Made by a program: the position numbers and the translations under genes. This document shows positions 6,135 through 46,625 of a stretch of DNA of 64,000 nucleotides, piece after piece. Numbering within the stretch: the first letter of the stretch is position 1; every line of letters begins with the position of its first letter. Under the pieces are notes generated by a model that had not been told where the DNA came from, searched no databases, and saw only the letters and a program-made list of their open reading frames with translations. The DNA is taken from assembly GCA_947502595.1 (NCBI GenBank), contig CANNAM010000009.1:1-64000 (forward strand). Direction: 5' to 3'. Source of the stretch: an uncultured Marinicella sp. Lineage in GTDB: Bacteria > Pseudomonadota > Gammaproteobacteria > Xanthomonadales > Marinicellaceae.

Positions 6135-8792
6135 TCAGTCCGTGACAGGATGGCGTCTTACAATAATAAGTGGATCAAAGCCATCTTTGAAGATGATGTC
6201 GCTGGCGTAGATTGAACCGAGTTCAACCGCGCCTATATCACAGTTATCATCGCCATCACCATTGCCGTCCCAAGGCCTGATGCGTCCGGTTTGATCTTCA
6301 TTTACTTGACAGAATGATTCACCACCATCAATGGCAATTCCGCCTAAAACTGGCAGATGAGTTAATGTGTCGCCGCCGTTATCTGCCAATAAAACATCAA
6401 TCACAGTGTTAGTAGCACCGACCGGAATGACATCGGTTGCACCCAGGGTTACGCCTGCTGAGCCACTGTCATTATTTTGGCCAATGATGTTAAAAGCATT
6501 CAAGGCAAAATTTGCTGTCTGTGAATTAATTTCGTTGGCTGTCGTAGCAACACCTCTATTTTCAGGTAGCATAAACCTACCATTTAAAAAATTATTGTTG
6601 TTAACATTGCTGCTAAAGCTATCTGGAGGAACAAGCAATTCATTTCCTGAAACAATAGAATGAGACATGCTTATTGGATCCAGGCCTCCATAAGAGCTGG
6701 CAAACACGCCACCAGTGTTGTAACCTGAGTTGCCAGTTATGGTTGAATTGCGGATTTCAGCGGCTGGTATGTGGCCATAGTAACCAGCTGCTATTATCAA
6801 GCCGCCATAGTTGTTTGATGTATTTCCTGAGACGGTTGAGTTTTCTAATGAAGCCAGTGCGACACTCCTGAAATCAACACCACCGGCGCCGTATACACCG
6901 ACATTGCCACTGACGGTAGACCTGCTTACTTCAAAACCTGTACTGCGAACAGCTGTTAAAGGGCTGAAATTACTGTTGAGATTTGTTGCTGACAGGGTAT
7001 TTTGACTGATTTCAGAATTAACCACAGAGGAATTAATTGAAAAGACATCAAAAATTGCAGCACTTTGGTTGCCGGTTATGACAGAGTTCAATACATTGAC
7101 ATTGCCACCATACCAAGTGGTTACTGCACCCAGCATTCCATTGGCTCCTGTCACTGTTGCATCAATCAAATTCAGCTGTCCACCCGGCTCGACATAAAAC
7201 AAATCAAAATCATCCAAGGAAGCTGCATCTCTCTCAAAAGTGCTGCCATTACTTTCTAAGGTCACTGCAGTTTCAATGCCTGCTATACCAAAACCTAATG
7301 TGTAGGGACCAGTGGTAACATAGCCAGCTATGGAATTAAAAGTCTGAACACTGTTTTCTTCTAACACAATGATGTCATGACCATTACCTGGTTGACAACC
7401 ACCCACACTGGCATCATTTTCAGCCGATTCTAACGCATTTAAAAAGGTACAAGGTGCACCATCAGCAATGATGGGCAAGGTGTGCTCAAAAGCACCTATG
7501 TCACAAATAAAACTGCCGTCATCATCGCCATCTTTACCGCGACCCTTGCCTTCTTGATCACTCACTGAACCGTAACAGCTCAGATCATTGGCATCGATTG
7601 CTGATGAACCAACTTTTAATGGGTGAACCAATTGTCCGTTGCTTAAACTTAATGGATAAAGATTATCTTCTGCATAATTAGTGAATGAAGAGTCGCTGGC
7701 ACCTAAGGTGATGTTGATTGATCCAGTCGAGCCATTATCACCAATGATGTTATTGGCGTTTAAATTAATGGTGCTGCTACCTTCACTGTAAATGTTTGGT
7801 GCAAACCCACCCCAAATGTTTGAGTTGCCAGCAACAATAGTGCCTTGCAATGTAATGTTGGCTCCATTTCCAACGTCTAAAATACCGCCTGCTATGATGG
7901 CTTGGTTGTTGGTGATGGTGCTGTTGGTTATTTGGGTGCTGCTGCCAATGAAACCTCTGAGCGAACTGTTACCAAATCGAATTGATTTTGAGGCCAAAGC
8001 CGGTGGCGTATCATCGGAAATAATAAATCCGCCACCATAGATGCTTTTGTTGCCACTGAAAGTTGAATCGGTGATGGTTACCTCAGAGTTAAACAAGGCT
8101 GCGCCACCAGCTATGGTAAATCCGCCACCTCGAGTTATGGGGCCCCCAGAATAATCAAATTCATTTTCTATGAAACTGGTTTTATCGATACTCACTTCCG
8201 CAAAATAAGTTTGTAGGCCACCTGGGCCATAACCACTGTTGATGTTGTGCCGAAAGACACTGTTATTGATCACATTGTTATAGCTATTAGCTATCGTGAC
8301 TGCATTGGTATTTAAAGCAAAGGTGCTGTTTTCAATGCTAACGCGTCCGCCATAAGCCAGTAAACCACTGCCCAAGCCAGCGCCATCATCGGCACTTGTA
8401 ACGGTGGTCTCACGTAAGGTTAAATCACCGCCCACACCTACTTCAAACAATCGAAAATTATCAATTGAGTTATCAGCAATGATGGTTAGACCATTACCCT
8501 CAATGGTCATTTTACTGCTGATAATCGGTAAACCCACGTCACCAGTGATTGAAGAAGGTTCAAAAATGGTGTTGATAAAAATTTGGTCATTTGCGGTGAC
8601 CACTTGAATGATGTCATCACCATTACCTACATTACAGGACCCAACAGGTAAGTCACTGTTAGCGGTTTGTATGGCTTGAATTAAACTACAGTTGTTGTCA
8701 ACCGTGATTGTGGCAGCGTGAGCTGATCCAAGTGCACATAGCAGCGCACTGTTCAGTACAGATTTTTTAAGAATAGTTTGATTTTTTTTCAT
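6135..8792 (-). CDS. exported parallel beta-helix protein of the choice-of-anchor Q type, two tandem halves
   Basis: The 885-residue product has a signal peptide (MKKNQTILKKSVLNSALLCALGSAHA). The body is Asn/Ser/Gly-rich with many short 'NSTVSGN', 'ITGN' turns typical of right-handed parallel beta-helices. It consists of two similar halves. Each starts with C-x-hydrophobic-x-x-A and 'VG.C..GNG.DII' (about residues 35-65 and 448-478) and each ends with a block like 'AID...C....DQ.GR.R..DG(D/N)GD...CDIGA.E' (about 400-437 and 820-858), the choice-of-anchor Q signature. The tail ASDIIFKDGFDPL resembles the C-terminal ends of three other exported proteins in the window. No catalytic residues are recognisable. 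It is monocistronic, with a strong terminator downstream and a decayed IS end upstream. Confidence 0.88.
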   Translation of the reverse strand: MKKNQTILKKSVLNSALLCALGSAHAATITVDNNCSLIQAIQTANSDLPVGSCNVGNGDDIIQVVTANDQIFINTIFEPSSITGDVGLPIISSKMTIEGNGLTIIADNSIDNFRLFEVGVGGDLTLRETTVTSADDGAGLGSGLLAYGGRVSIENSTFALNTNAVTIANSYNNVINNSVFRHNINSGYGPGGLQTYFAEVSIDKTSFIENEFDYSGGPITRGGGFTIAGGAALFNSEVTITDSTFSGNKSIYGGGFIISDDTPPALASKSIRFGNSSLRGFIGSSTQITNSTITNNQAIIAGGILDVGNGANITLQGTIVAGNSNIWGGFAPNIYSEGSSTINLNANNIIGDNGSTGSINITLGASDSSFTNYAEDNLYPLSLSNGQLVHPLKVGSSAIDANDLSCYGSVSDQEGKGRGKDGDDDGSFICDIGAFEHTLPIIADGAPCTFLNALESAENDASVGGCQPGNGHDIIVLEENSVQTFNSIAGYVTTGPYTLGFGIAGIETAVTLESNGSTFERDAASLDDFDLFYVEPGGQLNLIDATVTGANGMLGAVTTWYGGNVNVLNSVITGNQSAAIFDVFSINSSVVNSEISQNTLSATNLNSNFSPLTAVRSTGFEVSRSTVSGNVGVYGAGGVDFRSVALASLENSTVSGNTSNNYGGLIIAAGYYGHIPAAEIRNSTITGNSGYNTGGVFASSYGGLDPISMSHSIVSGNELLVPPDSFSSNVNNNNFLNGRFMLPENRGVATTANEINSQTANFALNAFNIIGQNNDSGSAGVTLGATDVIPVGATNTVIDVLLADNGGDTLTHLPVLGGIAIDGGESFCQVNEDQTGRIRPWDGNGDGDDNCDIGAVELGSIYASDIIFKDGFDPLIIVRRHPVTD

Positions 8793-9387: not shown

Positions 9388-10506
9388 ATGTTCAAATGGC
9401 TCATAATCATTTTGCTGTCTTTCAGTGCGCACGCTACAACGCACGATGTTTTTGTTGGCAACAATTATTTCAACCCGTCCATACTGAACATTCAGGTAGG
9501 TGACAGTGTTCGATTCTACAAAACATCATCTGGTAACCACAATGTTGTGGCAGATGATAATTCCTTCCGTTGCGCCTTGGGTTGTGATGGCAATGGGGGC
9601 AATGGCAATCCAACCACAGACCAGTGGGAGTTCACTTTGACTTTTAACGACCCGGGCTTAATCGGGTACTATTGTGAACTTCACGGCGGCGTTGGTTCAG
9701 GTATGTCTGGCAGCATCAGAGTGATGGATGGGGCCCTTGATTTCTTTTTTATTGCAGATACTGCTCAAGAATCACAGGCTACTTCCGGAACTTCAGAATT
9801 TACTCAAGGTGCTGGTGCCTTGCGCTGGGACCCGGAAATGGAAGAATTGAACTGGCAGTTTTATTATGAACAATTAACGGGCCTACCAACAGCTGCTCAT
9901 GTCCATGGGCCTGCCAATATGGGGGTCAACAGTGGTGTTTTATTGGGTTTGGGGGACGTATCAAGTTCACCAGTTTCTGGAACCGGTGCTTTCACAGAAG
10001 CCAATGTCAATCATATGAGGAACGGACTGACTTACATCAATCTTCATACTGCCGAGAATCCCGCGGGGGAAATTCGAGGCCAAATCTATCCCATCGCACA
10101 GAATTACACTTGGGAAACCATCATGACCCCTGAACAAATAACCGGTCAACTGACAGGCGATACCAGCATGTCCACGGGACAGGCTGTGCTTACATTCAAT
10201 GCCGTAACAAAAGTATTGCGTTGGAACGTCAGTTATTCTGGGTTGACCAGCAACATCACCAGTGCACACGTCCATGCACCTGCCAGAACAGGTGTCACCG
10301 GTCCTTCAACTATCACAATTACCAGCTCAAACCAGCCTTCACCCATATCCAGTGGCGCTGTCTATAGCGCCACATTGGGCAATATGGCTTATATAGATGC
10401 GGGTTTGTCATACATCAACATCAACACCCAAACCAATCCGTCAGGTGAAATACGGGGTCAACTCAGGCCCATTATATTTAAAGGAGGTTTTGCTTCAGGT
10501 GAGTGA
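9388..10506 (+). CDS. secreted cupredoxin-like protein with two CHRD domains
   Basis: The 372-residue product has a signal peptide (MFKWLIIILLSFSAHA). A plastocyanin/cupredoxin-like domain follows (about 17-112), with a His in SGNHNVV and a C-terminal Cys/His/Met cluster in YYCELHGGVGSGMSG that fits a type-1 copper site. Two CHRD domains follow (about 118-238 and 250-366), each with (A/S)AHVH(G/A)PA and ending in GEIRGQ. CHRD is a beta domain first described in chordin and found in many bacterial secreted proteins. The tail PIIFKGGFASGE is a weaker match to the C-terminal motif of other exported proteins here. The start is set by GGGGGA at 9376-9381. Electron transfer or copper binding is inferred; the partner is unknown. 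Confidence 0.85.
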   Translation: MFKWLIIILLSFSAHATTHDVFVGNNYFNPSILNIQVGDSVRFYKTSSGNHNVVADDNSFRCALGCDGNGGNGNPTTDQWEFTLTFNDPGLIGYYCELHGGVGSGMSGSIRVMDGALDFFFIADTAQESQATSGTSEFTQGAGALRWDPEMEELNWQFYYEQLTGLPTAAHVHGPANMGVNSGVLLGLGDVSSSPVSGTGAFTEANVNHMRNGLTYINLHTAENPAGEIRGQIYPIAQNYTWETIMTPEQITGQLTGDTSMSTGQAVLTFNAVTKVLRWNVSYSGLTSNITSAHVHAPARTGVTGPSTITITSSNQPSPISSGAVYSATLGNMAYIDAGLSYININTQTNPSGEIRGQLRPIIFKGGFASGE

Positions 10507-16806: not shown

Positions 16807-17358
16807 ATGGGTTCTGTTACTAATGTCTTAAACAGTGAAACTTTGCAGGCAGCCTTACAAGACAAAAAGCTGCAAAGTATGCTGTATCAAGAATTGCGGA
16901 TCATTGCACGTGCCAAACTCAATGCCCACGCCAAAAATAACGACCTCAACACCACCGCATTGGTACATGAGGCATTCCTTAAACTAAACCCTAAATCTGC
17001 AGACAGCCAATGGAGTGATCGCCGTCATTTTTATGCCACCGCGGCTTTAACCATGCGCCATATTTTGGTTGATCAAGCCAGGCGCAGATTGACTGAAAAG
17101 CGCGCACCCGAACAGCCTATGGATAACCACAATGAAGCGGCCATTGAAGTACAGCATCAGTGCCAAGAGTTGGTGGCATTGGATGAGGCTTTGGAGCAGC
17201 TTAAGCAGCTTGATGCAAGCTTGGTAGAATTGGTTAACCTGCGTTATTTTGTGGGTTTGAATATGACTGAAATTGCTGGGTTGATGGGCGTCTCAAAACG
17301 CACCATAGATCGACAGTGGTTGAAAGTAAAAGCGATTTTGGCGGCTTGGTTGAAATAG
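16807..17358 (+). CDS. ECF-type sigma factor of the kinase-associated (TIGR02999/ECF43-like) group
   Basis: The 183-residue product has region 2 (LYQELRIIARAKLNAHAKNN, TALVHEAFLKL, FYATAALTMRHILVDQARRR) and region 4 (LRYFVGLNMTEIAGLMGVSK then RTIDRQWLKVKAIL). In canonical ECF factors region 2.2 reads like DAEDLVQE; here the acidic residues are replaced by LNTTALVHE (Thr49-Thr50). In the ECF43 factor EcfP of Vibrio parahaemolyticus, phosphorylation of a Thr in region 2.2 by kinase PknT enables core binding. The gene is directly followed, 36 bases on, by a Ser/Thr kinase gene. Phospho-activation here is inferred from that family. Confidence 0.88.
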   Translation: MGSVTNVLNSETLQAALQDKKLQSMLYQELRIIARAKLNAHAKNNDLNTTALVHEAFLKLNPKSADSQWSDRRHFYATAALTMRHILVDQARRRLTEKRAPEQPMDNHNEAAIEVQHQCQELVALDEALEQLKQLDASLVELVNLRYFVGLNMTEIAGLMGVSKRTIDRQWLKVKAILAAWLK

Positions 17359-17394: not shown

Positions 17395-20151
17395 ATGAAC
17401 GATAAAACCAACAAGCAAATCAAAGGCATTGCTGCGAACGAGTGGAAGCAGTTGTTGGCTTTGTTTGATGTTCTTACACAGTTACCTGCAGTTGAACAGG
17501 TGCAGCGATTAAGCCAGGAGCAACTGTCCCAAACAGCCAAAAATTTATTGCAAAAAATGCTGGCATCACAGCATCAGCCGCATGTGTTGGATACAACCAT
17601 TGACCCTTTGGTGGAAACGTTGTTGGGTGAAGATGCGATCTGCGTGCATGCCAATCCTGCTAACATCATTGGTCGCACTTTCGGTGCTTGGAAAGCGGTT
17701 TCAGCTTTGGGCTTAGGTGGCATGGGTCAGGTGTTTGTGGCCGAACGGGCCGATGGACAGTTTGAAAAACAGGTGGCGCTTAAAATCATCAAGTCTGGCC
17801 AGTTTTCTGCGCACAGTCAACAAAGGTTTATGGATGAAATGCGCACTTTAGCGCAGTTTGAGCACCCGCACATTGCCCATTTAATAGATGGTGGCAGCAG
17901 TGAAGAGGGCATCACTTATTTTGTTATGGAATTGGTCGATGGTGTACCTATTGTTGCGTATGCCAACGCCAAACGCTTGCCACTGGCTGAGCGCATTAAA
18001 TTGCTGCTGCAGGTAATTGACGCTGTGGAGTATGCACACCAAAGCTTAATTATTCATGGTGACATCAAGCCAGCCAATATTTTGGTCAATGAATCAGGCC
18101 AAGTGAAATTAGTGGATTTTGGTATTGCCCGCTCATTAGGTGATGAATCAACAGATAATTACCTGCCACAATTCAGCCCCAGTTATTCAGCGCCCGAACA
18201 GGTGCAAGGTCAAGTTTTAACTACTGCCAGTGATGTATTTGGCCTGTGTGCTGTGTTGTATGAGTTGTGTACTGGTTCATCACCCAGGAACAGCGAATCA
18301 AAAACTACGCAGCTTGAATTCATTGCCCACATCAGTGCGCCAATTACTGCAGCCTATATCACTTTTTTATACAACCAACGCCATCACCAATTGGGTACAT
18401 TATTGCCAAGTTATAAAACTTATGATCAGGCGCTGTCTCAAGAGCTGGGTGCCATCATTGATAAGGGGCTACAAATAGCCGTGCCCAAACGGTATAAGAA
18501 TACCACTGAGTTGCGGCGTGATTTGTTGTTGTTCCTTGAAGGCGCTGCAGTGCCGAGCTTTGCCACCAGTTGGCTGTATAGGTGTAAAAAATCGGTACTA
18601 AAACACAAGTGGCCAGTGGTGCTTTCAATGTTTGGTTTGTTGGTGCTTATTGGCGTTACCTTGGTTGCCATAAAGCAAGCACAATTGGCCCAACTTGAAG
18701 CCAATAAAGCCAATTGGGCCAATCAATTTTTACTCAGTATATTTGATCATGCAGATCCGGTAAAAAACCAACAAAACCCGATCACCGTGAATCAACTGAC
18801 AGCACAAGCTGCAGAACAGATTATGGAAGATGACAGCGAGTTGCTGTTAAAAACCACTTCATTAGGTATGCTCAGTCAAATTCAATATAAGTTAGGTGAG
18901 GTGGAATCTGCTGAACGCTTGATTACAGAACAAATTAATTTGCTGCAAAAACTGCCGGTTGATGACACGCAATTGGCGGCGGTTCATATCAAGGCTGGCA
19001 ATATCATGGAAGCTCAAGATAAGCTGGTAGAAGCCATTGATCACTATCGGCAAGCCTTACAATTGGTACCTATTACTGCACACTTTACCGAATCTTCTGT
19101 GCGTGCCAGTCTGGCCTTGGCCAACAGTTTATTGCGTCTCAATGAGCTAGATGAAACACGCCAGTTGATGACAACTTTGGTTGGTAAAACCGTGCAAATC
19201 GAAGCCTTACCAGCAGCTGATTCTGTGCTGTCTACGCTGTATGCGGTCAAAGCCAATTTGTTGCTTTCCGCACAACAGTTTGAGGCAGCCATAGCACAGC
19301 TGCAAGAGGCCAAAGTGATGGCTTTAAGGGTTGCAGGTGAGCCTTTATTGTACCCCCATATTTTGTCTCTAGAATCTGATGCATATTACGAAAGTGGTCA
19401 GTTAATCCAAGCAGCAGAGATTGACCGTGAATTGGTTGAGTATTTCAGTCATCATTTTGGTGAGGACCACCCGGAAACCATTGATAAATTGGGGCGGTTG
19501 GCAGTTTCACTTGCTGGTATGGGTGATTTACAAGCAGCCATCACAATCAACCAAAAGATAATAGCCAACTTAAAAGGCACTGAAATCAAAGGCCATCAAA
19601 TTCCAGCAGCCTATTTAAACATGGGTACCGCATACCAAGCATTGGGAGATGATAAAACAGCCATAGAAAACTATACGCAAGCACAAAAACTGTGGCCTCA
19701 ATTAAAACCCAGAATTGTCATTTATGAGGCTACAACTGAAGTGCGAATAGCACAATCTTTGTTGAACCTGAAGCAATATGATGAAGCACAAAAGTATTTT
19801 GCTTCAGCTTTAGCTCGGATTGAAAAGGAGTATGGTGTAGATCATGGTCTATTTGCCAGATTTCAAATTATGTATGTACCTCTGTTGTTAGAATTGGGTC
19901 GAGCTGAAGAAGCCAATGCCATTATTCCAGCTGCATATCAGCGTATGGTCATTGTTTACGGTGAGCATTCGAAAAATGCAGCGGTGGCAAAATTAAGATG
20001 GGCGCAGTTGAATGTATTATTGAATCATCCAGAAGTGGCAGCAGAACAAGCGGCCAGTGTCATTGAAGTATTAGATGTGGATGCTTACAGAAAGCGCAAC
20101 CAAGAGTTGATAGATTTGGCACAACAAATCAGTCAAATGGCTGATCAGTGA
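17395..20151 (+). CDS. transmembrane Ser/Thr protein kinase with C-terminal TPR region
   Basis: The 918-residue product has a cytoplasmic kinase domain at about 92-380: glycine loop LGLGGMGQVFVA, catalytic Lys in VALKIIK, HGDIKPANILV (His221), VDFGIA and APEQVQGQ. One membrane helix (about 405-427, WPVVLSMFGLLVLIGVTLVA) follows. A long alpha-helical region of TPR type comes next (about 480-900, e.g. AVHIKAGNIMEAQDKLVEAI, AYLNMGTAYQALGDDKTAIE), predicted periplasmic. HGD replaces the usual HRD, so the activation-loop arginine is missing. The catalytic Asp is kept, so it can be active. It probably phosphorylates the upstream sigma factor; the TPR part may sense an envelope signal. Both are inferences from gene order. 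Confidence 0.88.
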   Translation: MNDKTNKQIKGIAANEWKQLLALFDVLTQLPAVEQVQRLSQEQLSQTAKNLLQKMLASQHQPHVLDTTIDPLVETLLGEDAICVHANPANIIGRTFGAWKAVSALGLGGMGQVFVAERADGQFEKQVALKIIKSGQFSAHSQQRFMDEMRTLAQFEHPHIAHLIDGGSSEEGITYFVMELVDGVPIVAYANAKRLPLAERIKLLLQVIDAVEYAHQSLIIHGDIKPANILVNESGQVKLVDFGIARSLGDESTDNYLPQFSPSYSAPEQVQGQVLTTASDVFGLCAVLYELCTGSSPRNSESKTTQLEFIAHISAPITAAYITFLYNQRHHQLGTLLPSYKTYDQALSQELGAIIDKGLQIAVPKRYKNTTELRRDLLLFLEGAAVPSFATSWLYRCKKSVLKHKWPVVLSMFGLLVLIGVTLVAIKQAQLAQLEANKANWANQFLLSIFDHADPVKNQQNPITVNQLTAQAAEQIMEDDSELLLKTTSLGMLSQIQYKLGEVESAERLITEQINLLQKLPVDDTQLAAVHIKAGNIMEAQDKLVEAIDHYRQALQLVPITAHFTESSVRASLALANSLLRLNELDETRQLMTTLVGKTVQIEALPAADSVLSTLYAVKANLLLSAQQFEAAIAQLQEAKVMALRVAGEPLLYPHILSLESDAYYESGQLIQAAEIDRELVEYFSHHFGEDHPETIDKLGRLAVSLAGMGDLQAAITINQKIIANLKGTEIKGHQIPAAYLNMGTAYQALGDDKTAIENYTQAQKLWPQLKPRIVIYEATTEVRIAQSLLNLKQYDEAQKYFASALARIEKEYGVDHGLFARFQIMYVPLLLELGRAEEANAIIPAAYQRMVIVYGEHSKNAAVAKLRWAQLNVLLNHPEVAAEQAASVIEVLDVDAYRKRNQELIDLAQQISQMADQ

Positions 20152-35202: not shown

Positions 35203-36549
35203 ATGAAATATATATACGCATTCATGGTCGCATGTTTTCTCTCAGTCGCTGGTGCAGAAAAAGTCGATTTAGCGATTCTGAATATTGATGGCGTTGGGCC
35301 AAGTGTATTGACCCAGGTTAAACAGTCTGAAGGCGTGGACTGGTGGATAGAGGTGGGTGAAAAACTGTTGGTCGCCAGCAGTGTTAATGGCCACCAAGAC
35401 TTACCCGGCGGTGTTGTCCTTGAATCCACTTTGTCTGCAGTCGATATTGACCAGCTGGCTTTTCATGTGTTGGGTCATTGTGACCACTCAGAAACGGATA
35501 AAATTTTGCATGACAAGCTGAATGTGGTTTATGCAGGCCAGCCGACCAGAATAGTTAATATTGCTGCCGTACATGACAAAAGTCAATTGCTGCAGCATGA
35601 TGCAATATTGCCTTTTGAAAAGAATAAAGTGCTGAGCTATCAAATCAAAAACCGTGAATTTAAAAAGCAACAGTTTGGCAGCAGCCAGGTTCAAGGCTTG
35701 GTCGATCAGGTGAGCCAAAATCGTTGGTACAGTCAAGTAGAATACTTGGCTGGTTTTGACCGCATGTTGGAAGTTGACCTTGAAACTACGGGCCAGTGGC
35801 TAGAGGAACAATTCAATGCACTGGGGTTGGTCACTTCAAGGGTTTCATTGCACAGTCACTACCGTGGCTTCAATGTGCTGGGTTTCAAGCAAGGCAGCAC
35901 CAGAGCAGATGATTGGTATGTGGTGGGTGCGCATTTGGACTCCAGAAATGCAACATGGAATGATAATTTGCCTTCACCTGGTGCAGAGGACAATGCCTCA
36001 GGTTGTTCTGGGGTTTTGGAAATGGCCAATGTCATCACTCAATATGATACTGAGGCATCCATTGTTTTCATGTGTTTTATTGAGGAAGAATCAGGTTTAT
36101 TGGGTTCCAAGGATGTGGTGACTCAATTAACCACTGATGGTGACATCAATAAAGTTCAGGCCATGTTGAACCTAGATATGATCAGTTACCGAGCCCCCGA
36201 CATGAATACCGCCGTGGTAGGCACCAACTCCGCTCAATACCAATCTTTAGCCAATACAGTTGCAACCAATGGCAATCTATATACTGATCTTGATTGGCAA
36301 GTTAACTTGAACATGTGTTGTACTGATTTTGTCAGTTTTTCGGCAGCTGATATCCCTGCCGTTACCACCAATCAACCCAATATCTCTAGTTATTTTGGCT
36401 ACCATTCAACCCAAGATTTGGCGGTTAATCTTGACCCAGTATTAGGTTCAAGCATTGTCAAAGCCAATCTGGCTACTTTGATTGATAGGGTGGGTGTTGA
36501 CTTCACCTCAAGTGACCTCATTTTTGCCGATGGTTATGAGCTGCCTTAA
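35203..36549 (+). CDS. secreted M28 family zinc aminopeptidase
   Basis: The 448-residue product has a signal peptide (MKYIYAFMVACFLSVAGA). After a propeptide-like part comes an M28 domain with the zinc ligands in order: His about 244 and Asp about 263 (VVGAHLDSRN, GAEDNASGCSG), Glu about 294 (CFIEEESGLLGS), Asp about 325 (LNLDMISY) and His about 401 (YHSTQDL). CCTDFVSFSAADIPA fits the Vibrio leucine aminopeptidase branch. The end DLIFADGYELP is a strong match to the shared C-terminal tail of exported proteins here. The ATG at 35203 follows GAGG; the frame opens at a TTG at 35188. It is divergent from gspA. Confidence 0.92.
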   Translation: MKYIYAFMVACFLSVAGAEKVDLAILNIDGVGPSVLTQVKQSEGVDWWIEVGEKLLVASSVNGHQDLPGGVVLESTLSAVDIDQLAFHVLGHCDHSETDKILHDKLNVVYAGQPTRIVNIAAVHDKSQLLQHDAILPFEKNKVLSYQIKNREFKKQQFGSSQVQGLVDQVSQNRWYSQVEYLAGFDRMLEVDLETTGQWLEEQFNALGLVTSRVSLHSHYRGFNVLGFKQGSTRADDWYVVGAHLDSRNATWNDNLPSPGAEDNASGCSGVLEMANVITQYDTEASIVFMCFIEEESGLLGSKDVVTQLTTDGDINKVQAMLNLDMISYRAPDMNTAVVGTNSAQYQSLANTVATNGNLYTDLDWQVNLNMCCTDFVSFSAADIPAVTTNQPNISSYFGYHSTQDLAVNLDPVLGSSIVKANLATLIDRVGVDFTSSDLIFADGYELP

Positions 36550-36603
36550 TTGAAGTAAACATGGTTATTCTGCTGACAAATTTATCCGGGGTTTGTAAGT
36601 TAA

Positions 36604-36915
36604 GTGAATGATTGGTTGGTCATTAACTTGGGTGATGCGATGTTGGTCTATGAACAGCAACAACAGCTGGAATCTTTGTTGTTCTCGGCTTACAAAAAAG
36701 CTGGAGAACCTGCAGACATGGCAGCATTTATTCGGCATGAATCTGCAGGTCGGTTGCACTGCGAGGTCAAACTGTACATATCACCGCAGTTGGCTGCTGC
36801 GGTCAATGTAGAAGGGGCTCAAGCATGCCCCAAGCCCAAGGCTCAAGACCTCGGGTTATTGGTTGGTGATGTCGATGCATGGTTGGCACTGTTTCCAGCA
36901 ACCAATGGCATTTAG
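36604..36915 (+). CDS. small protein of unknown function
   Basis: The 103-residue product begins at a GTG (NDWLVINLGDAMLVYEQQ). It has mixed helix and strand content with a plausible folded pattern: QLESLLFSAYKKAG, AAFIRHESAGRLHCEVKLYI, QAC and DVDAWLALFPA. There is no signal peptide or membrane helix. I do not recognise the family. Amino acid composition and the lack of a competing frame make it a likely gene, but the ribosome-binding site is weak. It lies 54 bases after the peptidase gene and faces the next minus-strand gene. Confidence 0.6.
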   Translation: MNDWLVINLGDAMLVYEQQQQLESLLFSAYKKAGEPADMAAFIRHESAGRLHCEVKLYISPQLAAAVNVEGAQACPKPKAQDLGLLVGDVDAWLALFPATNGI

Positions 36916-36940
36916 CCCTTACTTATTACGCCATGTATGC

Positions 36941-38569
36941 TTAAGGGCCTTCAAATGCATTGGCAAAAATCAAGTCGCCCATTGTGGTGAATGGGTGGGC
37001 ACCCATATGCACAGTTGGCACACTCCAAAAAGTACCATCTCCGGCATGACTTGCTGGGCTGCTGTCTAACAGGTAAAAGTCGATGGAGTTGGTGAATTGT
37101 GGGTCGGCACTGATTGATTGTGCCTCTCTGAGGCTGAACTCATTTTGAAAAGTGCTTAAGCCATAGGGTGTGCCACTGTAAAAGTTACCACCCCAATTGG
37201 GCCTTAAATGGATATCGGCATGGCTGTTGTTGAAGTACAAATTATGGTGTGATTCAAACTGATCCAGGTAGTCATTAACAGTGGTTGTGGTGCCTCCACT
37301 TTGCAGGTAAACACCCACTTCATTGTTGGCAAAAATATTGTTGGCAATCACTGTACCAAAACTGCCTTCCCAGCCGATTTGCACGGCCGTTGCCACATTA
37401 TAGAACACATTGTTGTAGAGGTTGTTGTTGTGGTTGTCTTCGTCATAGGCAGGCAGTCTGAGGCCAACTTCTGTGTTGGTGACGATGTTGCCATAAATTT
37501 GCCAATCACCACCAGGGCGGTATTCGACATCAGTGGATTGACAGCCGTCGGTGTTGGTGGCTGACCAAACGCAACGAAAACCACCCGGCTCAAAGGCATT
37601 GTAGACATCATGGATGTAGTTGTAGCGAACAATCAAGTTCGAAGTGCCGCCTTTGGTACCGACGGCTGAGCGACCAGGGATGTCGTATATTTCATTGTAC
37701 TCAACCACATTGGGGTCACCAATTTTAGTCACCATAAAACTGACACCTTTGCTGTTAGAGGTGCCGCCCCAGTAGACAGAGTCAAAGATTGTGTTGTGTC
37801 TGACCACACTGCCTTGCGAATCCCAAATCCTGACTGCGTAAGCGTTGTCATTGCCATTTGAAATGTGACCAAACACATTGTTTTCCAGGGTGACGTAATC
37901 TGCACCCTCAAAGAAAATGGGACTGCTTTGGGTGTAGTATATATGTAAGTTTTTCAGGGTCATGTAATCAGCCACTGAACGTGGCAAGCCGCGTTGTGAC
38001 AATTCATAAACCTGGGTGTTGGGCAGTTCACCGTCAGCTGGGAAAAGGTAAATAAAACAACCGCTGTTGTCAGCAAAACATTGGCTGCCATTGGCATCGG
38101 CTTTGGTCCAGTGGTTGGGCGTGACTAGATTGCTCACATGGTCATGATCCCTGCCGCCATCCAAATCACTTTGGTGGTCGACCCGTTGATGGCCATTGAA
38201 CATGCCTTTGGGGTCGCTGTTCAATTGATCTGCTGGGATGCGCCAAACTTGGGCGTTGTAAGCTTCCCAAGTGTTATTCGCCGTACCGTATGATCCGAGC
38301 AATTCTACCACCTCACCCGCATGGCCCTGAATGGTGGTATTGGGTGTGGTGAAGGTGCTGAAATTGGTTTCTTCAATCAGTCGATAGACGCCGCCCCTGA
38401 TAGTTAATGTGTCGCCCGCTTGCAACTGGTCAAATCCATAGGCCAGGCTCTGCCATGGACTGGAAATAGTGCCGGAATTGTTGTCATCACCATTGGTGGC
38501 AACAAAATATTCAGCCGCTGAAGAATTTAATGACAGTAATATCAATGCAATTGCGCGCAAAACTCTCAT
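36941..38569 (-). CDS. secreted parallel beta-helix protein (DUF1565/polysaccharide-lyase-like)
   Basis: The 542-residue product has a signal peptide (MRVLRAIALILLSLNSSAA). DUF1565 follows (YFVATNGDDNNSGTISSPWQ, LTIRGGVYRLIEE), then a right-handed beta-helix with repeated 'NNVF', 'RHNTIFDS', 'VRYNYIHDV' rungs (about 190-450). Such proteins are often polysaccharide lyases or hydrolases; no clear catalytic set is seen. The C-terminus is GDLIFANAFEGP, a variant of the shared tail. The ATG at 38569 has GAGG 8 bases before it and gives a proper signal peptide; the longer frame adds nine residues. Confidence 0.88.
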   Translation of the reverse strand: MRVLRAIALILLSLNSSAAEYFVATNGDDNNSGTISSPWQSLAYGFDQLQAGDTLTIRGGVYRLIEETNFSTFTTPNTTIQGHAGEVVELLGSYGTANNTWEAYNAQVWRIPADQLNSDPKGMFNGHQRVDHQSDLDGGRDHDHVSNLVTPNHWTKADANGSQCFADNSGCFIYLFPADGELPNTQVYELSQRGLPRSVADYMTLKNLHIYYTQSSPIFFEGADYVTLENNVFGHISNGNDNAYAVRIWDSQGSVVRHNTIFDSVYWGGTSNSKGVSFMVTKIGDPNVVEYNEIYDIPGRSAVGTKGGTSNLIVRYNYIHDVYNAFEPGGFRCVWSATNTDGCQSTDVEYRPGGDWQIYGNIVTNTEVGLRLPAYDEDNHNNNLYNNVFYNVATAVQIGWEGSFGTVIANNIFANNEVGVYLQSGGTTTTVNDYLDQFESHHNLYFNNSHADIHLRPNWGGNFYSGTPYGLSTFQNEFSLREAQSISADPQFTNSIDFYLLDSSPASHAGDGTFWSVPTVHMGAHPFTTMGDLIFANAFEGP

Positions 38570-41228: not shown

Positions 41229-41261
41229 AGACTGAAAATGCAACTAAATATGAGATTGATT

Positions 41262-44200
41262 ATGAAAACTTTATTATTTTCAATATTGATGCTGACAGCT
41301 TTCAGTCTATCAGCGCAAGTTACCATGTATGAACAAGAGCCTAATAATGCGCCCGACACCGTTAACCCTATTCAGGTACCAGTGGTTATCTTGGGCAGCA
41401 TGGAAAATAATGATCAAGACATGTTCGTTTGGGAGGTTTCAGATGAAGCTGCTGGGTATTCATGGGACCTTGAATTACAGGGCATTCCAGACCGCTTAAC
41501 CCGGCTAGATGTCATGCAATTGCATTTCACTGAAGATGGCAAAGGTGTCACTAAAGTAAATAAACTGTTGGCTTTACATAACCGCGGAGCCACTGCAATC
41601 AGTAAAACAGGTTTGGTGTTTGCGCCAGGTACATACTATTTCGGCTTGTCGTATGCAGGTGGTGCGGATGTCACAAAATCAAGCTTATTGGGTGATCAGT
41701 TACTGGCGGACTTGGGTGAGGCGTTTGTTCAGGAAAACCAAGTCATTGAGACAATGAACACCAAGCCATTGAACGGTTATCAATTGAGTATCAGTCAACA
41801 TTCTAAAGCAACCACCATCAATACTTCAAAAAACAGCCAAGACCGTCCCGGCAAGTTAAGAACCAACAGCAAAGGGCGTTTGTTTTTTGACCAGCAAATC
41901 ATTTGGTTGGAATTCAATCTTACAACCAAAGATGCGGCTGAAATTTGGCGTATCAGTGGCCAAGTTAATTTGGGTCATTCAATTCAATTGGATTTGTATA
42001 ATGCACAAGGGGATAAGTTAGCCACCACCAGCGCTGAGTCTCTGGGGGCATTCAAGCTCAATAACCTTAAACTACCTGCCGGAGGTTATATGTTGGCCAT
42101 TGGCAGCGCCAACAATGCATTGGCTGAAATTGAAATTCAATCAATGGGAGAATACATCGATGGCAATGAGTTTGAGCCCAATGATGCCATCAAAACGGCC
42201 AATCATTTTTCGATTGATGCTGGCATTTCTGGACTGGTGGACCAAACCAAAGACAAAGATTTTTTTAAGTTTGTAATCACTGAGGAACAGGCTGTCTATC
42301 ATTTCGATATCAAACTCATCAATCATGATCATTCACCACTGACCCTGTGCTTGTATGGCTTGAATCAAAACAAACTTCAGTGCAAACAAGGCCAAAGTGA
42401 CATGCTGCTGTCGCAACTGCTGCTGAATCAAGGTGAATACACCCTTGGTATTTCAAATGGCAAACTCAATACCAAATACAGCATCGAAGTGGTCAATAAT
42501 GGCATCCAAAAAAGCCTTATGGAAGCCGAACCCAATGATCGATTTGAAGAGGCAATAATGTTGAATCAAAAGCGAGTGGTGAAGGGCAATTTCAATGGAA
42601 AGGAAGATGATTTTTTTGTATTTGAAGTGGGCGAGGAGGCTCAGATGTGGACGCTTCAAGCCATCGGTGAAGGCATCAGTCAAATGCACTTATACAATGC
42701 AGCCAACCAGAAAGTTCAGTCTCATCGCTATGCAAAAGGCACCAAAAGAGCTCGAATCAGCAATTTAAATTTACAACCGGGAAAGCACATCGTGCAACTG
42801 CATGGTGAGGACAGTCAGTATATATTCAGGGCCTTTGCTACGGGTCCAGCCGACGCTTCATTCGAAGCAGAACCCAATGATGAGGTGAAAAATGCACAAT
42901 TGATTGCTTTTGATCAGCCAAAAAAAGGCTTGCTACAAAACACCGCTGATGAAGACGTTTATCGTTTTCATTTGAGCAGTGAACAAGGCGTCAATTTAGA
43001 AATTCAGCCAGCAGCTGATGCAGACATCAGTTACAACATTTATTGGGACAAAGTGTTGGTGGCAAAGAAAAAATCGGCTCCAGGTGAAAAAGTAGGTTTC
43101 AAAGGCATGTTACAAGCAGGTGATTATTCAGTCAGTCTTAAGGCTGGGAAATCCCCCAGTGATGATGTGTACCAACTTGAGTTGCAGCCAGCCAATTTGA
43201 TGGCTTGCCAATTAGATTGTGAGCCCAATGACAGTGCGCATCAAGCCAATTTAATTGAGCCATCATTGAAGTTAGCGGGCGAGACAGGTACACATGAAGA
43301 TGATGATTGGTATAGACTGCCCCCGTTCACCACGGAAACTACCGTCACATTCATTAAAGATTCTGGTCAGATCAGTCATGATTTGGATGGGTATATTAAC
43401 TATGATAAAAAACTCAGTAAGCAATTAAACCCAGAAAAAAACCAGCTGAGTTTTGTGGTGCCAGCCAAGCAAGCCAGTTTTTATCAAATCCATCAACAGG
43501 TCAACCAATACCAGTACCAAGTGCTGATTAACAATCAAGTGCTTGAGGCGCCAACCCAGTACAAAGACCTTAAACTGGAGCTGCAAAAATTACCTCAAAC
43601 AGTAACGGCCTACAGCCCTTATGCGCAAGTGATTCAAACACAGCTTAACATTGAAAACACCGGTCTCCTTGACCAGGTTGTGGACATTGAGGCGGCGGTC
43701 AATGACCACCGTTGGCGCATTGACTTTGCATCCCAAAACCAAGCAATTGCCATCAAAGCCAATGACCGTATGCAAATTCCCATCAGCATAAATGTACCCA
43801 ATGAACTGATCAGAAATCAGCAAGTTAGGCTCAGCTTCGCGGTTAAAAACACCCAAGGTCATGTCTCACAAATTTGGCATGATTTGCGAGCAGCTGTGGA
43901 TGTGCCATTAATTCAGCCTAAACAGTATTGGTCAATTGACGAACAATTGTTAGGTGGCATCAACGTAGCAGCCACAGCAATGGGTGCGCAAAGAACTGCT
44001 GAAGACCGAGTGATCAATACCAGTGCCAATGGTTTTGGTTTTGATGAGTTGTTTGATGGCATCACAGCAGAGGGCGTGGGCTTGCAGTATCGGGGCGGCA
44101 GAAAAGCTGATCATGACCACATCACCGTTGACTTGGCTGGTGATGAGCTTGTCAATATACAAGGCATTCTATTGAACCCGTTGTCTCGGGGTAAGCCGCA

Positions 44201-46625
44201 AGTTGCTGCTAAAGATTTTGATTTACACTTGTCAGTTGATGGCATCAATTTTAATTCGGTGTTAACAGGTCAGATAAAGCCTGTCCTTGCAGAACAGTCC
44301 TTTGTACTGCCGCAACCGGTGCCTGCTAAATTTGCCAGACTGTACATTTTAAACAGCTACCATGACATTGACCGACCACAAACCACATTGGGGGAGTGGA
44401 AGGTTGTTGCCAGTCCATCCCAGTCAATTGGCAGTGGTTTTAATCTTGCCAATCCAGAACTGGGCGGTCATGTGGTGTGGGCCTCGCCTGAGCCATCAAA
44501 CAGTTGGAATCAACGTTTGCTCACTGAGAAGCAAGCGAACAATTTAATCCGCTCTAAAGCCAATGAAGATTGGCAGTGGGTGGTGGGTTTTCATAATCAA
44601 AGGGCAGCAAAAATCAACAAAATCCAATGGCAACACGCCACAATAAGTGCCGCTAAACTGCCGAAGTTTAAAGAGGTAAAAGTGATGACCTCATTGGGCA
44701 GCAATGTTGGTCCATGGACTGTGGTAGCAACACATCAATTTAAAAACCTGCAAGACATGGATGAAGTCGTTTTTGCGCAACCGATTTGGGCCAGGTACAT
44801 TAAGTTTTCTATAGGCAATGACGGTGCATCTACCACCGCCTATTTTCCTGAAACCACGCGTGTTTTTGAGGCCCCCAGTGGCAGCGACTATCAAAGCATT
44901 TTGGGCGAATGGGGTGAGCTTTCTGAGCAGGCAGTGTATGAATTACAGCACTTTAACAGCATCAAACCCAGTCTTCAAGACAGCAACAACCACAGTAAAT
45001 CAACTGCGATTGACCTCACCAGGTTGCAAAAAGCCACTGGACAGGTTCAGCTTGAACATGCCGATAAACCAGATTGGTACAAAATCAAAACCCAAGCAAC
45101 TGACAACACTTTGAAAATTAATTTGTCTGGTAAACAAAGCATTGAAACAGTGCTTGAGGTTGAAGATGATCAAGGCAACAAAATGCCTCTGATCACCCAT
45201 AAAAAAACCAGTAATGAAATTGAATACCACCTGTCAGTCAATCCCAACCAAGATTATTTCATCAAAATCACTGAGCCACCCAGGTCAGTGGTGTTTGTCT
45301 GGGACACCAGTGGCAGTACGCTGGCGTATCAACCAATGATTTATAACGCCATTGGCAGTTACAGCAATGCTGTCAAAGCTGACCGTGATGTGGTTAATTT
45401 TTTACCTTTTGGTGGCCAGCTGCTGATGCAAGATTGGTATGGCAATCCACATTACCTGAAAACCATTTTAAACAACTACCCCAGGAAGGACAATTCAAGC
45501 AGTGCTGAAGAATCCCTTTATAAGGCGACGCGGGCACTGGCGCAAAGACAGGGTTCGAAAGCCATCGTCATCATTACCGATGCCATCACATCGAAGTACA
45601 CACCTATGTGGGAAGCCTTCAGGACTACCCAGCCCAGAATATTTGCCATTGGAATTGTACAAAGTGCTTTTGGCGGTAACCCTGATCAACAAGTTGACTT
45701 AATGCAAACATGGTCACGGGTAAACAACGGAGATTTTCAGCGAGTGGTTAATGCCACCCAAGTTGAACATGCTTTTGATCGCGCTGCTGTGAAGCTGCGT
45801 CAGCCAGCTGATTACAGTATTCAGGTCAGCAGTGAATACATCAAAGCGCCAGGTCCTGGGGAACTGTTTATCAGTCAAGCGGCTGATACTCAAGCCACTG
45901 CAGTGGAGTTGATATTAGATGCTTCTGGTAGTATGTTAAAACGCCTCAATGGTGAGCGCAGGATCAACATTGCTAAAGGTGTGTTGATTGATGCAGTGAC
46001 AACCATCATCCCTGAAAACACGCCACTTGCTTTGCGGGTATTTGGCGATAAACAAGCCAATGCATGCCGCACAGATCTGGCCATCAAGCTCAACCCATTG
46101 AACCGGAGTCAAGCCAAAAAGGTAATCAGTCAGATCAATGCCAAGAACTTAGCCAAAACCCCGATAGCTGATTCATTGGCTCAAGTTGCCAATGATTTAA
46201 AATCCCACCAAGGCAAAAAAATAGTTATTTTGGTCACCGATGGTGAAGAAACTTGTGATGGTGATCCAGAACAGGTGATTGCACAGTTAATAGATCAGGG
46301 TATAGACGTGCGCTTGAATATAGTTGGTTTTGCCATCAATGACGAAGAATTAAAAGCACAATTCAATCAGTGGTCAGTTCAAGGTGGTGGCAAGTACTTT
46401 GACAGCAATGACCCAGAATCACTGAAACAATCGGTCAGTCATGCCTTAAAAACACCTTTCTCAGTGTTCTCACCCGCAGGTGAGTTGGTACAAGAAGGTG
46501 TGGTTAATGGTCAGCCATTGCAGTTGCCCGCTGGCATTTATACCATCAAAGTGTTTGGCAATAAAACGCAAACGTTTGAGAATTACCACATCAAAGGTGA
46601 GGTGACCCAGGAAATTAAACTTTGA
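41262..46625 (+). CDS. giant exported PPC / discoidin-like / double VWA protein
   Basis: About 1787 residues with a signal peptide (MKTLLFSILMLTAFSLSA). It has about five pre-peptidase-C-like beta domains, each opening with an EPN(N/D) motif (near residues 24, 302, 422, 535 and 652). Two discoidin-like beta domains follow (about 905-1045 and 1055-1190), then another PPC-like domain. Two von Willebrand A domains have MIDAS sequences FVWDTSGST (near 1347) and LILDASGSM (near 1550), the second with the late VTDGEETCDG. A beta domain ends the protein. VWA and PPC domains bind proteins, metal or sugar outside the cell. The start is uncertain: ATGs at 41238 and 41250 are also in frame. It works with the preceding gene by inference only. 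Confidence 0.8.
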   Translation: MKTLLFSILMLTAFSLSAQVTMYEQEPNNAPDTVNPIQVPVVILGSMENNDQDMFVWEVSDEAAGYSWDLELQGIPDRLTRLDVMQLHFTEDGKGVTKVNKLLALHNRGATAISKTGLVFAPGTYYFGLSYAGGADVTKSSLLGDQLLADLGEAFVQENQVIETMNTKPLNGYQLSISQHSKATTINTSKNSQDRPGKLRTNSKGRLFFDQQIIWLEFNLTTKDAAEIWRISGQVNLGHSIQLDLYNAQGDKLATTSAESLGAFKLNNLKLPAGGYMLAIGSANNALAEIEIQSMGEYIDGNEFEPNDAIKTANHFSIDAGISGLVDQTKDKDFFKFVITEEQAVYHFDIKLINHDHSPLTLCLYGLNQNKLQCKQGQSDMLLSQLLLNQGEYTLGISNGKLNTKYSIEVVNNGIQKSLMEAEPNDRFEEAIMLNQKRVVKGNFNGKEDDFFVFEVGEEAQMWTLQAIGEGISQMHLYNAANQKVQSHRYAKGTKRARISNLNLQPGKHIVQLHGEDSQYIFRAFATGPADASFEAEPNDEVKNAQLIAFDQPKKGLLQNTADEDVYRFHLSSEQGVNLEIQPAADADISYNIYWDKVLVAKKKSAPGEKVGFKGMLQAGDYSVSLKAGKSPSDDVYQLELQPANLMACQLDCEPNDSAHQANLIEPSLKLAGETGTHEDDDWYRLPPFTTETTVTFIKDSGQISHDLDGYINYDKKLSKQLNPEKNQLSFVVPAKQASFYQIHQQVNQYQYQVLINNQVLEAPTQYKDLKLELQKLPQTVTAYSPYAQVIQTQLNIENTGLLDQVVDIEAAVNDHRWRIDFASQNQAIAIKANDRMQIPISINVPNELIRNQQVRLSFAVKNTQGHVSQIWHDLRAAVDVPLIQPKQYWSIDEQLLGGINVAATAMGAQRTAEDRVINTSANGFGFDELFDGITAEGVGLQYRGGRKADHDHITVDLAGDELVNIQGILLNPLSRGKPQVAAKDFDLHLSVDGINFNSVLTGQIKPVLAEQSFVLPQPVPAKFARLYILNSYHDIDRPQTTLGEWKVVASPSQSIGSGFNLANPELGGHVVWASPEPSNSWNQRLLTEKQANNLIRSKANEDWQWVVGFHNQRAAKINKIQWQHATISAAKLPKFKEVKVMTSLGSNVGPWTVVATHQFKNLQDMDEVVFAQPIWARYIKFSIGNDGASTTAYFPETTRVFEAPSGSDYQSILGEWGELSEQAVYELQHFNSIKPSLQDSNNHSKSTAIDLTRLQKATGQVQLEHADKPDWYKIKTQATDNTLKINLSGKQSIETVLEVEDDQGNKMPLITHKKTSNEIEYHLSVNPNQDYFIKITEPPRSVVFVWDTSGSTLAYQPMIYNAIGSYSNAVKADRDVVNFLPFGGQLLMQDWYGNPHYLKTILNNYPRKDNSSSAEESLYKATRALAQRQGSKAIVIITDAITSKYTPMWEAFRTTQPRIFAIGIVQSAFGGNPDQQVDLMQTWSRVNNGDFQRVVNATQVEHAFDRAAVKLRQPADYSIQVSSEYIKAPGPGELFISQAADTQATAVELILDASGSMLKRLNGERRINIAKGVLIDAVTTIIPENTPLALRVFGDKQANACRTDLAIKLNPLNRSQAKKVISQINAKNLAKTPIADSLAQVANDLKSHQGKKIVILVTDGEETCDGDPEQVIAQLIDQGIDVRLNIVGFAINDEELKAQFNQWSVQGGGKYFDSNDPESLKQSVSHALKTPFSVFSPAGELVQEGVVNGQPLQLPAGIYTIKVFGNKTQTFENYHIKGEVTQEIKL

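Follow-up and report, generated by a model that had tools for sequence, protein, structure and literature searches.

A short C-terminal tail on exported proteins of Lysobacterales, a candidate sorting tag that co-occurs with a second type II secretion system

We analyzed a stretch of 64,000 nucleotides from an uncultured Marinicella sp. (the window; contig CANNAM010000009.1 of assembly GCA_947502595.1, positions 1 to 64,000 of the forward strand) for a short C-terminal tail shared by several exported proteins. At the locus shown, a LapA-like M28 aminopeptidase with a signal peptide (PF04389; 35203-36549, plus strand; listed open reading frame (ORF) start 35188; score against the LapA model far under the cut-off) carries the tail DLIFADGYELP (36514-36546). 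On the opposite strand, an exported right-handed beta-helix protein (PF13229; 36941-38596, probable start 38569) ends with GDLIFANAFEGP (36944-36979). An exported ORF of 885 aa (6135-8792, minus strand) without Pfam match contains a choice-of-anchor-Q region (choice_anch_Q, NF041518) at residues 802-858, directly before the tail DIIFKDGFDPL (6168-6200). The weak variant PIIFKGGFASGE (GGFASGE; 10468-10503, plus strand), missed by the strict pattern described below, belongs to an exported protein of 372 aa with cupredoxin (PF00127) and CHRD (PF07452) domains (9388-10506). Thus, all four tails named in an earlier sequence-only reading are present, at coordinates 3 to 8 bases off those given there, and all four carrier ORFs have a signal-peptide-like start as judged by eye. 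The tail follows the last domain at the C-terminus in three of them; DIIFKDGFDPL is not terminal, with ten further residues (IIVRRHPVTD) beyond it. The folds are unrelated as claimed, representing three kinds rather than four (M28, cupredoxin-CHRD and two beta-helix-like proteins).

The strict core pattern F-x-[DNGS]-[GA]-[FY]-[DE] was searched at the DNA level, with the reversed pattern as control. The 3.24-Mb genome of the window contained 82 matches versus 30 for the control, and 23 versus 3 when a stop codon was required next. In 49 cases the match lay in frame near the C-terminus of a protein of at least 120 aa (47 proteins), with a distance from F-[ED] to the protein end of at most 12 residues in 46 and at most 21 in 48 of the 49. 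The remaining distance, 44 residues, was that of L075 (L and G numbers are our labels for loci and genomes). The N-terminus is visible for 45 of the tailed proteins, and in 44 of these it resembles an export signal (42 were recognised by a crude script and 2 by eye), L055, a probable chance match within a membrane protein, being one of the 44. L075 (G000:C35, minus strand; VDDLIFESGFE), an RTX-repeat protein, is the only one of the 45 without a signal peptide.

The other 33 of the 82 matches lay mostly in short or antisense frames, and most look like chance. Given so short a motif, these non-C-terminal matches could suggest that the whole pattern is an artefact of chance or composition. This explanation is refuted by the reversed controls, by restriction of the tail to one order (see below) and by conserved positions outside the search pattern, and we consider its probability negligible. 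Four of the 33 are full motifs elsewhere in exported proteins. In L018 (N-terminus outside the sequence stretch examined), L044 and L068 (minus strand) the motif is internal, at apparent domain borders, and in L033 (G000:C4 near 71565, minus strand) ADLIFYNGFD stands immediately behind the signal peptide, at the mature N-terminus. The expectation that the motif is always C-terminal was therefore borne out for the most part, these four copies being the exceptions.

A sample chosen blind to the motif (184 kb; the window plus six 20-kb stretches, L312-L317; 150 ORFs) had the strict core three times in the last 30 residues of ORFs versus once elsewhere. All five tails recognised in this sample, strict or variant, were in ORFs called exported, the fifth being a new variant, DVIFYDDFDIVY. 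Note that the export script was permissive here, calling 60 of the 150 ORFs exported, some of them plainly cytoplasmic. A relaxed pattern also matched two signal-less ORFs, which we judged to be false. In other genomes, 51 of 66 closed tailed ORFs had an export-signal start by a rougher script, and the 15 misses include chance-like frames.

The carriers have little in common apart from the tail. We aligned 46 of them (45 of the 47 proteins plus the weak cupredoxin-CHRD protein; L055 and the open-ended L310 were excluded) and found a mean column identity of 8%, with the F of the tail as the one invariant column. These 46 proteins matched 44 Pfam families (E up to 0.001), and the 25 families listed include S8, M14 and M28 peptidases, endonuclease I, sugar dehydrogenases, FG-GAP, beta-helix and Calx-beta. 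The spread over unrelated folds proposed from the window therefore extends to the genome.

The tail consensus is D-[LVI]-I-F-x-[DN]-G-F-[ED], approximately nine residues. Numbered from the first F, the 49 matches have D at -3 in 41 cases, L, V or I at -2 in 38, I at -1 in 44, A or K at +1 in 29, D or N at +2 in 43, G at +3 in 46 and F at +4 in 48, followed at +5 by E (36) or D (13) and then immediately by the stop codon in 24. Note that the search pattern constrains positions 0 and +2 to +5, whereas -3, -2 and -1 are free yet conserved. The codons of the motif vary, and therefore selection seems to act on the protein. Two tandem copies stand at the end of L053 and of L054. Proteins from other families of the order end exactly with the core [LIV]-F-x-[DN]-G-F-E, as found with patterns that required a stop codon; the GC-rich version additionally had A and E fixed.

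An AlphaFold2 model of one carrier, the M28 peptidase (ten homologues), had a mean confidence score (pLDDT) of 85.7. The only run of at least three residues below 50 was the last nine, predicting a tail that is disordered behind a folded domain. This bears on the idea that the tail is a structural leftover without sorting role, namely the first strand of a lost or duplicated MAM-like domain (FxDGFE...GW). We take the tail to resemble the start of such domains; a domain-like stretch follows the motif in L068, and InhA-like MAM domains match 2 of the 46 tailed proteins. However, the disorder in the model, conservation of the tail over 46 unrelated proteins, its retention in orthologues and the tandem copies of L053 and L054 all make this origin very improbable. 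Regarding relatives of the M28 peptidase, a tail variant, variable at the G position, ends 15 of 30 loci (families f1, f3, f4 and f11). Nine other loci had been read in the wrong frame, and re-reading of L193, L195 and L199 showed a tail-like end. An extra C-terminal module of ~115 residues in L190 and L191 (SGMWYNPDQSGHGL...) is perhaps an alternative tail.

Several carriers are matched by NCBIfam models that take their names from other sorting tails. With E values of up to 0.01 accepted, the 46 proteins gave matches to choice-of-anchor Q (8), rhombosortase-dependent M36 (3), an LPXTG-anchored peptidase family (3), type IX-dependent (T9SS) M36 (2) and myxosortase-dependent M36 (1), assigned by E value rather than by model cut-offs and possibly reflecting shared PA or P domains. 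The 25 Pfam families listed include no M36 family, and the M36-model matches may therefore rest on accessory domains. The choice_anch_Q family, by its name, precedes different anchoring tails; its model, despite matching 8 of the 46 carriers, stops short of the tail described here. In sequence terms, the tail seems to occupy the slot that known sorting tails fill in other bacteria, and this is clearest for the tails that follow choice-of-anchor Q. No model covered the tail itself when ten C-terminal 40-mers were searched, including none of the PEP-CTERM or GlyGly-CTERM type at E up to 10.

The signal for type IX (Por) secretion is a C-terminal domain that determines outer-membrane export after Sec. 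The tail is alike in being a C-terminal region, but the Por signal forms a whole domain (models of length 72 and 75), whereas the tail is a peptide of ~9 residues, disordered in the single model. No match to the type IX domain (TIGR04183, PF18962) was found in the ten 40-mers, and the single match in a window protein (41238-46625; residues 244-294 of 1795) is in a protein without tail. The signal for the beta-barrel assembly machinery is the last barrel strand, ending in an aromatic residue. The tails instead end in E or D or continue with further residues, and in the carrier modelled, an M28 enzyme, the tail is disordered.

No membrane helix was seen in the 49 matches, which upholds the earlier distinction from PEP-CTERM and GlyGly-CTERM. 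The C-terminus of both is described as tripartite (PMC3237569), with a motif, a transmembrane helix and a cluster of basic residues. According to the same paper, GlyGly-CTERM and its rhombosortase resemble the present case in having a short C-terminal region on exported proteins of unrelated folds, with several carriers per genome, in genomes that generally possess type II secretion; in contrast, the ~9-residue tail has neither membrane helix nor basic cluster. PEP-CTERM with exosortase likewise involves a C-terminal region on many unrelated exported proteins and is sporadic among lineages (PMC1569441 and PMC3237569), and again the tail differs in lacking helix and basic cluster. The tail may be an unnamed kind of C-terminal sorting tag, without the defining features of PEP-CTERM, GlyGly-CTERM or type IX signals. 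We found no published name for it in the literature searched, a weakly supported negative with most subscription journals and preprints outside the coverage.

In other genomes, the stop-anchored pattern gave up to 63 matches (G046, with 0 for the control), with controls of 0 to 3 per genome. Of the 299 genomes of the order, 77 had at least 5 matches, while 271 gammaproteobacterial genomes outside the order never exceeded 4, the background level. A GC-rich pattern was run against 84,980 named species, each represented by one genome, and returned 65 stretches. Of these, 58 are titled as Lysobacterales or members of it (genera including Dokdonella, Aquimonas, Pseudofulvimonas, Tahibacter and Chiayiivirga) or as unclassified proteobacteria or gammaproteobacteria. 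Stretches from Verrucomicrobiales, Chthoniobacterales, Treponema, Streptomyces, Nocardia and Burkholderiaceae have frames unlike exported proteins. As judged from these searches, the tail is restricted to one order, Lysobacterales/Xanthomonadales. A Chloroherpetonaceae contig (L117) encodes a tailed protein resembling L121 of Xanthomonadales KatS3mg125 and is mis-binned or transferred. The tails of G346, G355, G382, G387, G439 and G507 look genuine, with about five stretches read for each.

This distribution has to be set against a role of the tail in periplasmic quality control, as a tag recognised by a chaperone or a PDZ protease of the DegP/Prc type. Such PDZ proteins recognise C-termini, and the tail is a short disordered C-terminal end. 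To our knowledge, however, proteases of this type are near universal, whereas the tail does not extend beyond one order, within which whole families rarely have it, and half of the tails do not stop at F-[ED]. We regard a quality-control tag as improbable.

Searches for the secretin GspD showed that most tail-rich genomes encode two paralogues of it. In the genome of the window, system A is an Xps-like cluster (L165), the GspN-like protein of which has no Pfam match. System B, a second type II secretion system (T2SS-B), consists of gspC-D-E-F (L164) and, at a separate place, gspG-H-I-J-K (L274), and its GspC (GspC_B) contains a PDZ domain. Xps and Xcs are used here as labels that we assume to apply. 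In a tree of 23 GspD proteins, the 11 B proteins (GspD_B) form one clade (94/98) within the canonical group, and the Xcs-like GspD of G053 falls outside it.

GspD_B was present in 73 of 77 tail-rich versus 46 of 222 tail-poor genomes (absent from 4 and 176, respectively), giving a family-stratified Cochran-Mantel-Haenszel chi2 of 84.8 over the 299 genomes. The suggestion that genomes with the tail share a particular export gene thus mostly held. Tail-rich was defined as at least 5 matches on both strands; thresholds of 3 and 8 gave the same picture, and values were entered manually. For four genomes (G009, G014, G024 and G482), the positive score comes from fragments located at the ends of contigs, with 47 to 86% identity. 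Scored as negative were 20 tail-less genomes (19 of family f2, and G545 of f12) in which GspD matched mainly the C-domain of GspD_B, and rescoring these as positive gave a chi2 of 65.0, in a recount that also took G015 and G346 (see below) as positive. The association is also visible within families: in f2 (78 genomes) the two tail-rich genomes are the only two with T2SS-B, the 19 with partial, Xcs-like matches being scored negative, and in f12 T2SS-B is found in 10 of 10 tail-rich versus 2 of 66 other genomes.

GspG was examined in 49 of the 299 genomes. A second GspG with a high score is present in G015 and G346, two of the tail-rich genomes in which GspD_B was not found, and counting both, as in the recount above, raises the number to 75 of 77; the same evidence in tail-poor G451 and G459, which that recount left as negative, would change the other count to 48 of 222. 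As a clean mark of T2SS-B, GspG fitted the first 15 genomes and then met exceptions. It was kept as supporting evidence only, because a high-scoring GspG occurs in tail-less G053, G498, G540 and G545 (from another system) and none was found in the T2SS-B-positive G024, G450 and G482.

We also considered pairs of an extracytoplasmic function (ECF) sigma factor and a kinase near tail genes (L010/L164, L025 and L057) as a regulator or partner. The control ECF family TIGR02999 was above cut-off in 216 of the 299 genomes. Tail-rich genomes account for approximately 74 of these (of 77) and tail-poor ones for 142 (of 222), so that this family too is associated with the tail, but much more weakly than T2SS-B. 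The pairs were rejected, TIGR02999 being found also in many tail-less genomes of f2. The window contains one such gene pair, with an ECF sigma factor at 16807-17358 and a large kinase-like protein at 17395-20151, and, close to its left edge, a gene for an RHS/YD-repeat protein (819-5624).

We suggest that the tail is a linear sorting tag acting after Sec or Tat, most likely for T2SS-B; we hold this reading, which rests on sequence comparison, to be plausible while stopping short of calling it probable. The further proposition that a dedicated second type II system of Lysobacterales reads a linear, transplantable C-terminal address tag of nine residues is offered more tentatively, as a possibility. 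The carriers, folded proteins of many families with a disordered C-terminal extension, would traverse the inner membrane via Sec (at least one, seemingly, via Tat) and then fold in the periplasm. An export step at the outer membrane would read the tag as a linear peptide, and T2SS-B (GspC with its PDZ domain, GspD, E and F, with GspG-K encoded elsewhere) would most likely be this reader, delivering the carriers to the surface or the medium. Both Sec-like starts and at least one Tat-like start (the RR start of tailed L104, by eye) are present, from which we infer that the tag is read once the carriers have crossed the inner membrane, either in the periplasm or beyond it. The leading candidate is T2SS-B, as the sole export component found to track the tag, among few candidates tested, and as a system whose GspC has a PDZ domain. 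Two features of a type II substrate are found, with export-signal-like starts on nearly all carriers and GspD_B in nearly all tail-rich genomes. In Legionella, LapA is a substrate of type II secretion. The GspC PDZ domain is required for export of VesB in Vibrio (PMC12369372). The loop 3 signal of PelI/Pel3 and the Ig fold of VesB are likewise read in the periplasm on folded proteins and involve flexible segments and the GspC PDZ domain (PMC7949064 and PMC12369372). Those signals differ from the tail in being composite and structural, whereas the tail is one conserved linear sequence.

A number of observations weigh against assigning the tail to T2SS-B. The type II signals described in published work share no common linear sequence (PMC7949064, PMC12369372). 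A strictly C-terminal reading, in which a PDZ domain binds the carboxylate, is unlikely because 25 of the 49 tails extend past F-[ED]. L075 lacks a signal peptide, as expected for an RTX protein, for which type I export would be predicted. Six of the 30 M28 loci are tail-less: two close, LapA-like orthologues with the additional module (L190 and L191, of G003 and G017) and four more distant proteins, two of which (L209, L212) come from tail-rich genomes. Among the four tail-rich genomes without GspD_B, G355 (77% complete) and G387 (98% complete; 8 tail matches, of which five were read) also have no high-scoring second GspG, and G387 is a real exception. Conversely, 46 genomes have T2SS-B and fewer than 5 matches; family f9 contributes 36 of these genomes, 27 of which belong to genus g12. 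T2SS-B thus does not need the tag. T2SS-B follows family lines and therefore looks ancestral, with several losses and with tails lost alongside, so that co-occurrence of tail and T2SS-B may reflect shared loss, the independent events being few. Finally, the length of the PDZ hairpin of GspC_B does not track tail use. We had considered the short hairpin of f9 as a cause of tail loss, but in 30 GspC_B (from 11 clusters and 19 of 20 stretches, one being too short; GspC found by profile) it proved to be a lineage mark, occurring also in tailed G403 (15 tails), G431 (9), G447 (9), G439 (7) and G372 (6).

In f9/g12 (G336, G354 and others) tails are nearly absent, and the PDZ domain of GspC_B is present in the four members read (G040, G336, G354 and G388). 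For one Wenzhouxiangella strain, a type II system was reported together with a lack of proteolytic activity in the medium (PMC7691419).

That T2SS-B dispenses with the tag in some genomes, and that G387 suggests a tag working without it, leaves anchoring or processing as the main rival. Here a surface or periplasmic enzyme or receptor would read the tail, with T2SS-B merely the usual route out. Such a role would accommodate the T2SS-B genomes with few tails, the tailed genome without T2SS-B and the motif on an RTX protein without signal peptide. It would also fit the carrier matches to models named for anchoring or processing tails, subject to the reservations given above, and the general possession of type II secretion by GlyGly-CTERM species (PMC3237569). 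The tail, however, has no membrane helix or basic cluster that would retain the protein for an enzyme, and the Tat-like start beside many Sec-like ones speaks against a Sec-coupled enzyme of the inner membrane. No candidate anchoring or processing enzyme is known, although no sortase, exosortase or rhombosortase was searched for. We consider anchoring or processing rather unlikely. The original proposal of a sorting or secretion signal is supported overall; the tail may sort, secrete or anchor its carriers, or have some other role.

How type II secretion chooses its cargo is a long-standing open question, and according to two recent papers (PMC7949064, PMC12369372) a linear signal common to its substrates is not known. 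Because a nine-residue tag carried by dozens of proteins in each genome is open to deletion, transfer and mutation, the question becomes directly testable in environmental bacteria. The tag helps to list the exported proteins of these genomes from sequence and could serve to display or secrete chosen proteins. If the tail is an anchoring signal instead, it would still be a C-terminal sorting signal without membrane helix. A linear tag for T2SS-B, if true, would be the larger novelty, contradicting the view that type II secretion systems recognise only folded shapes.

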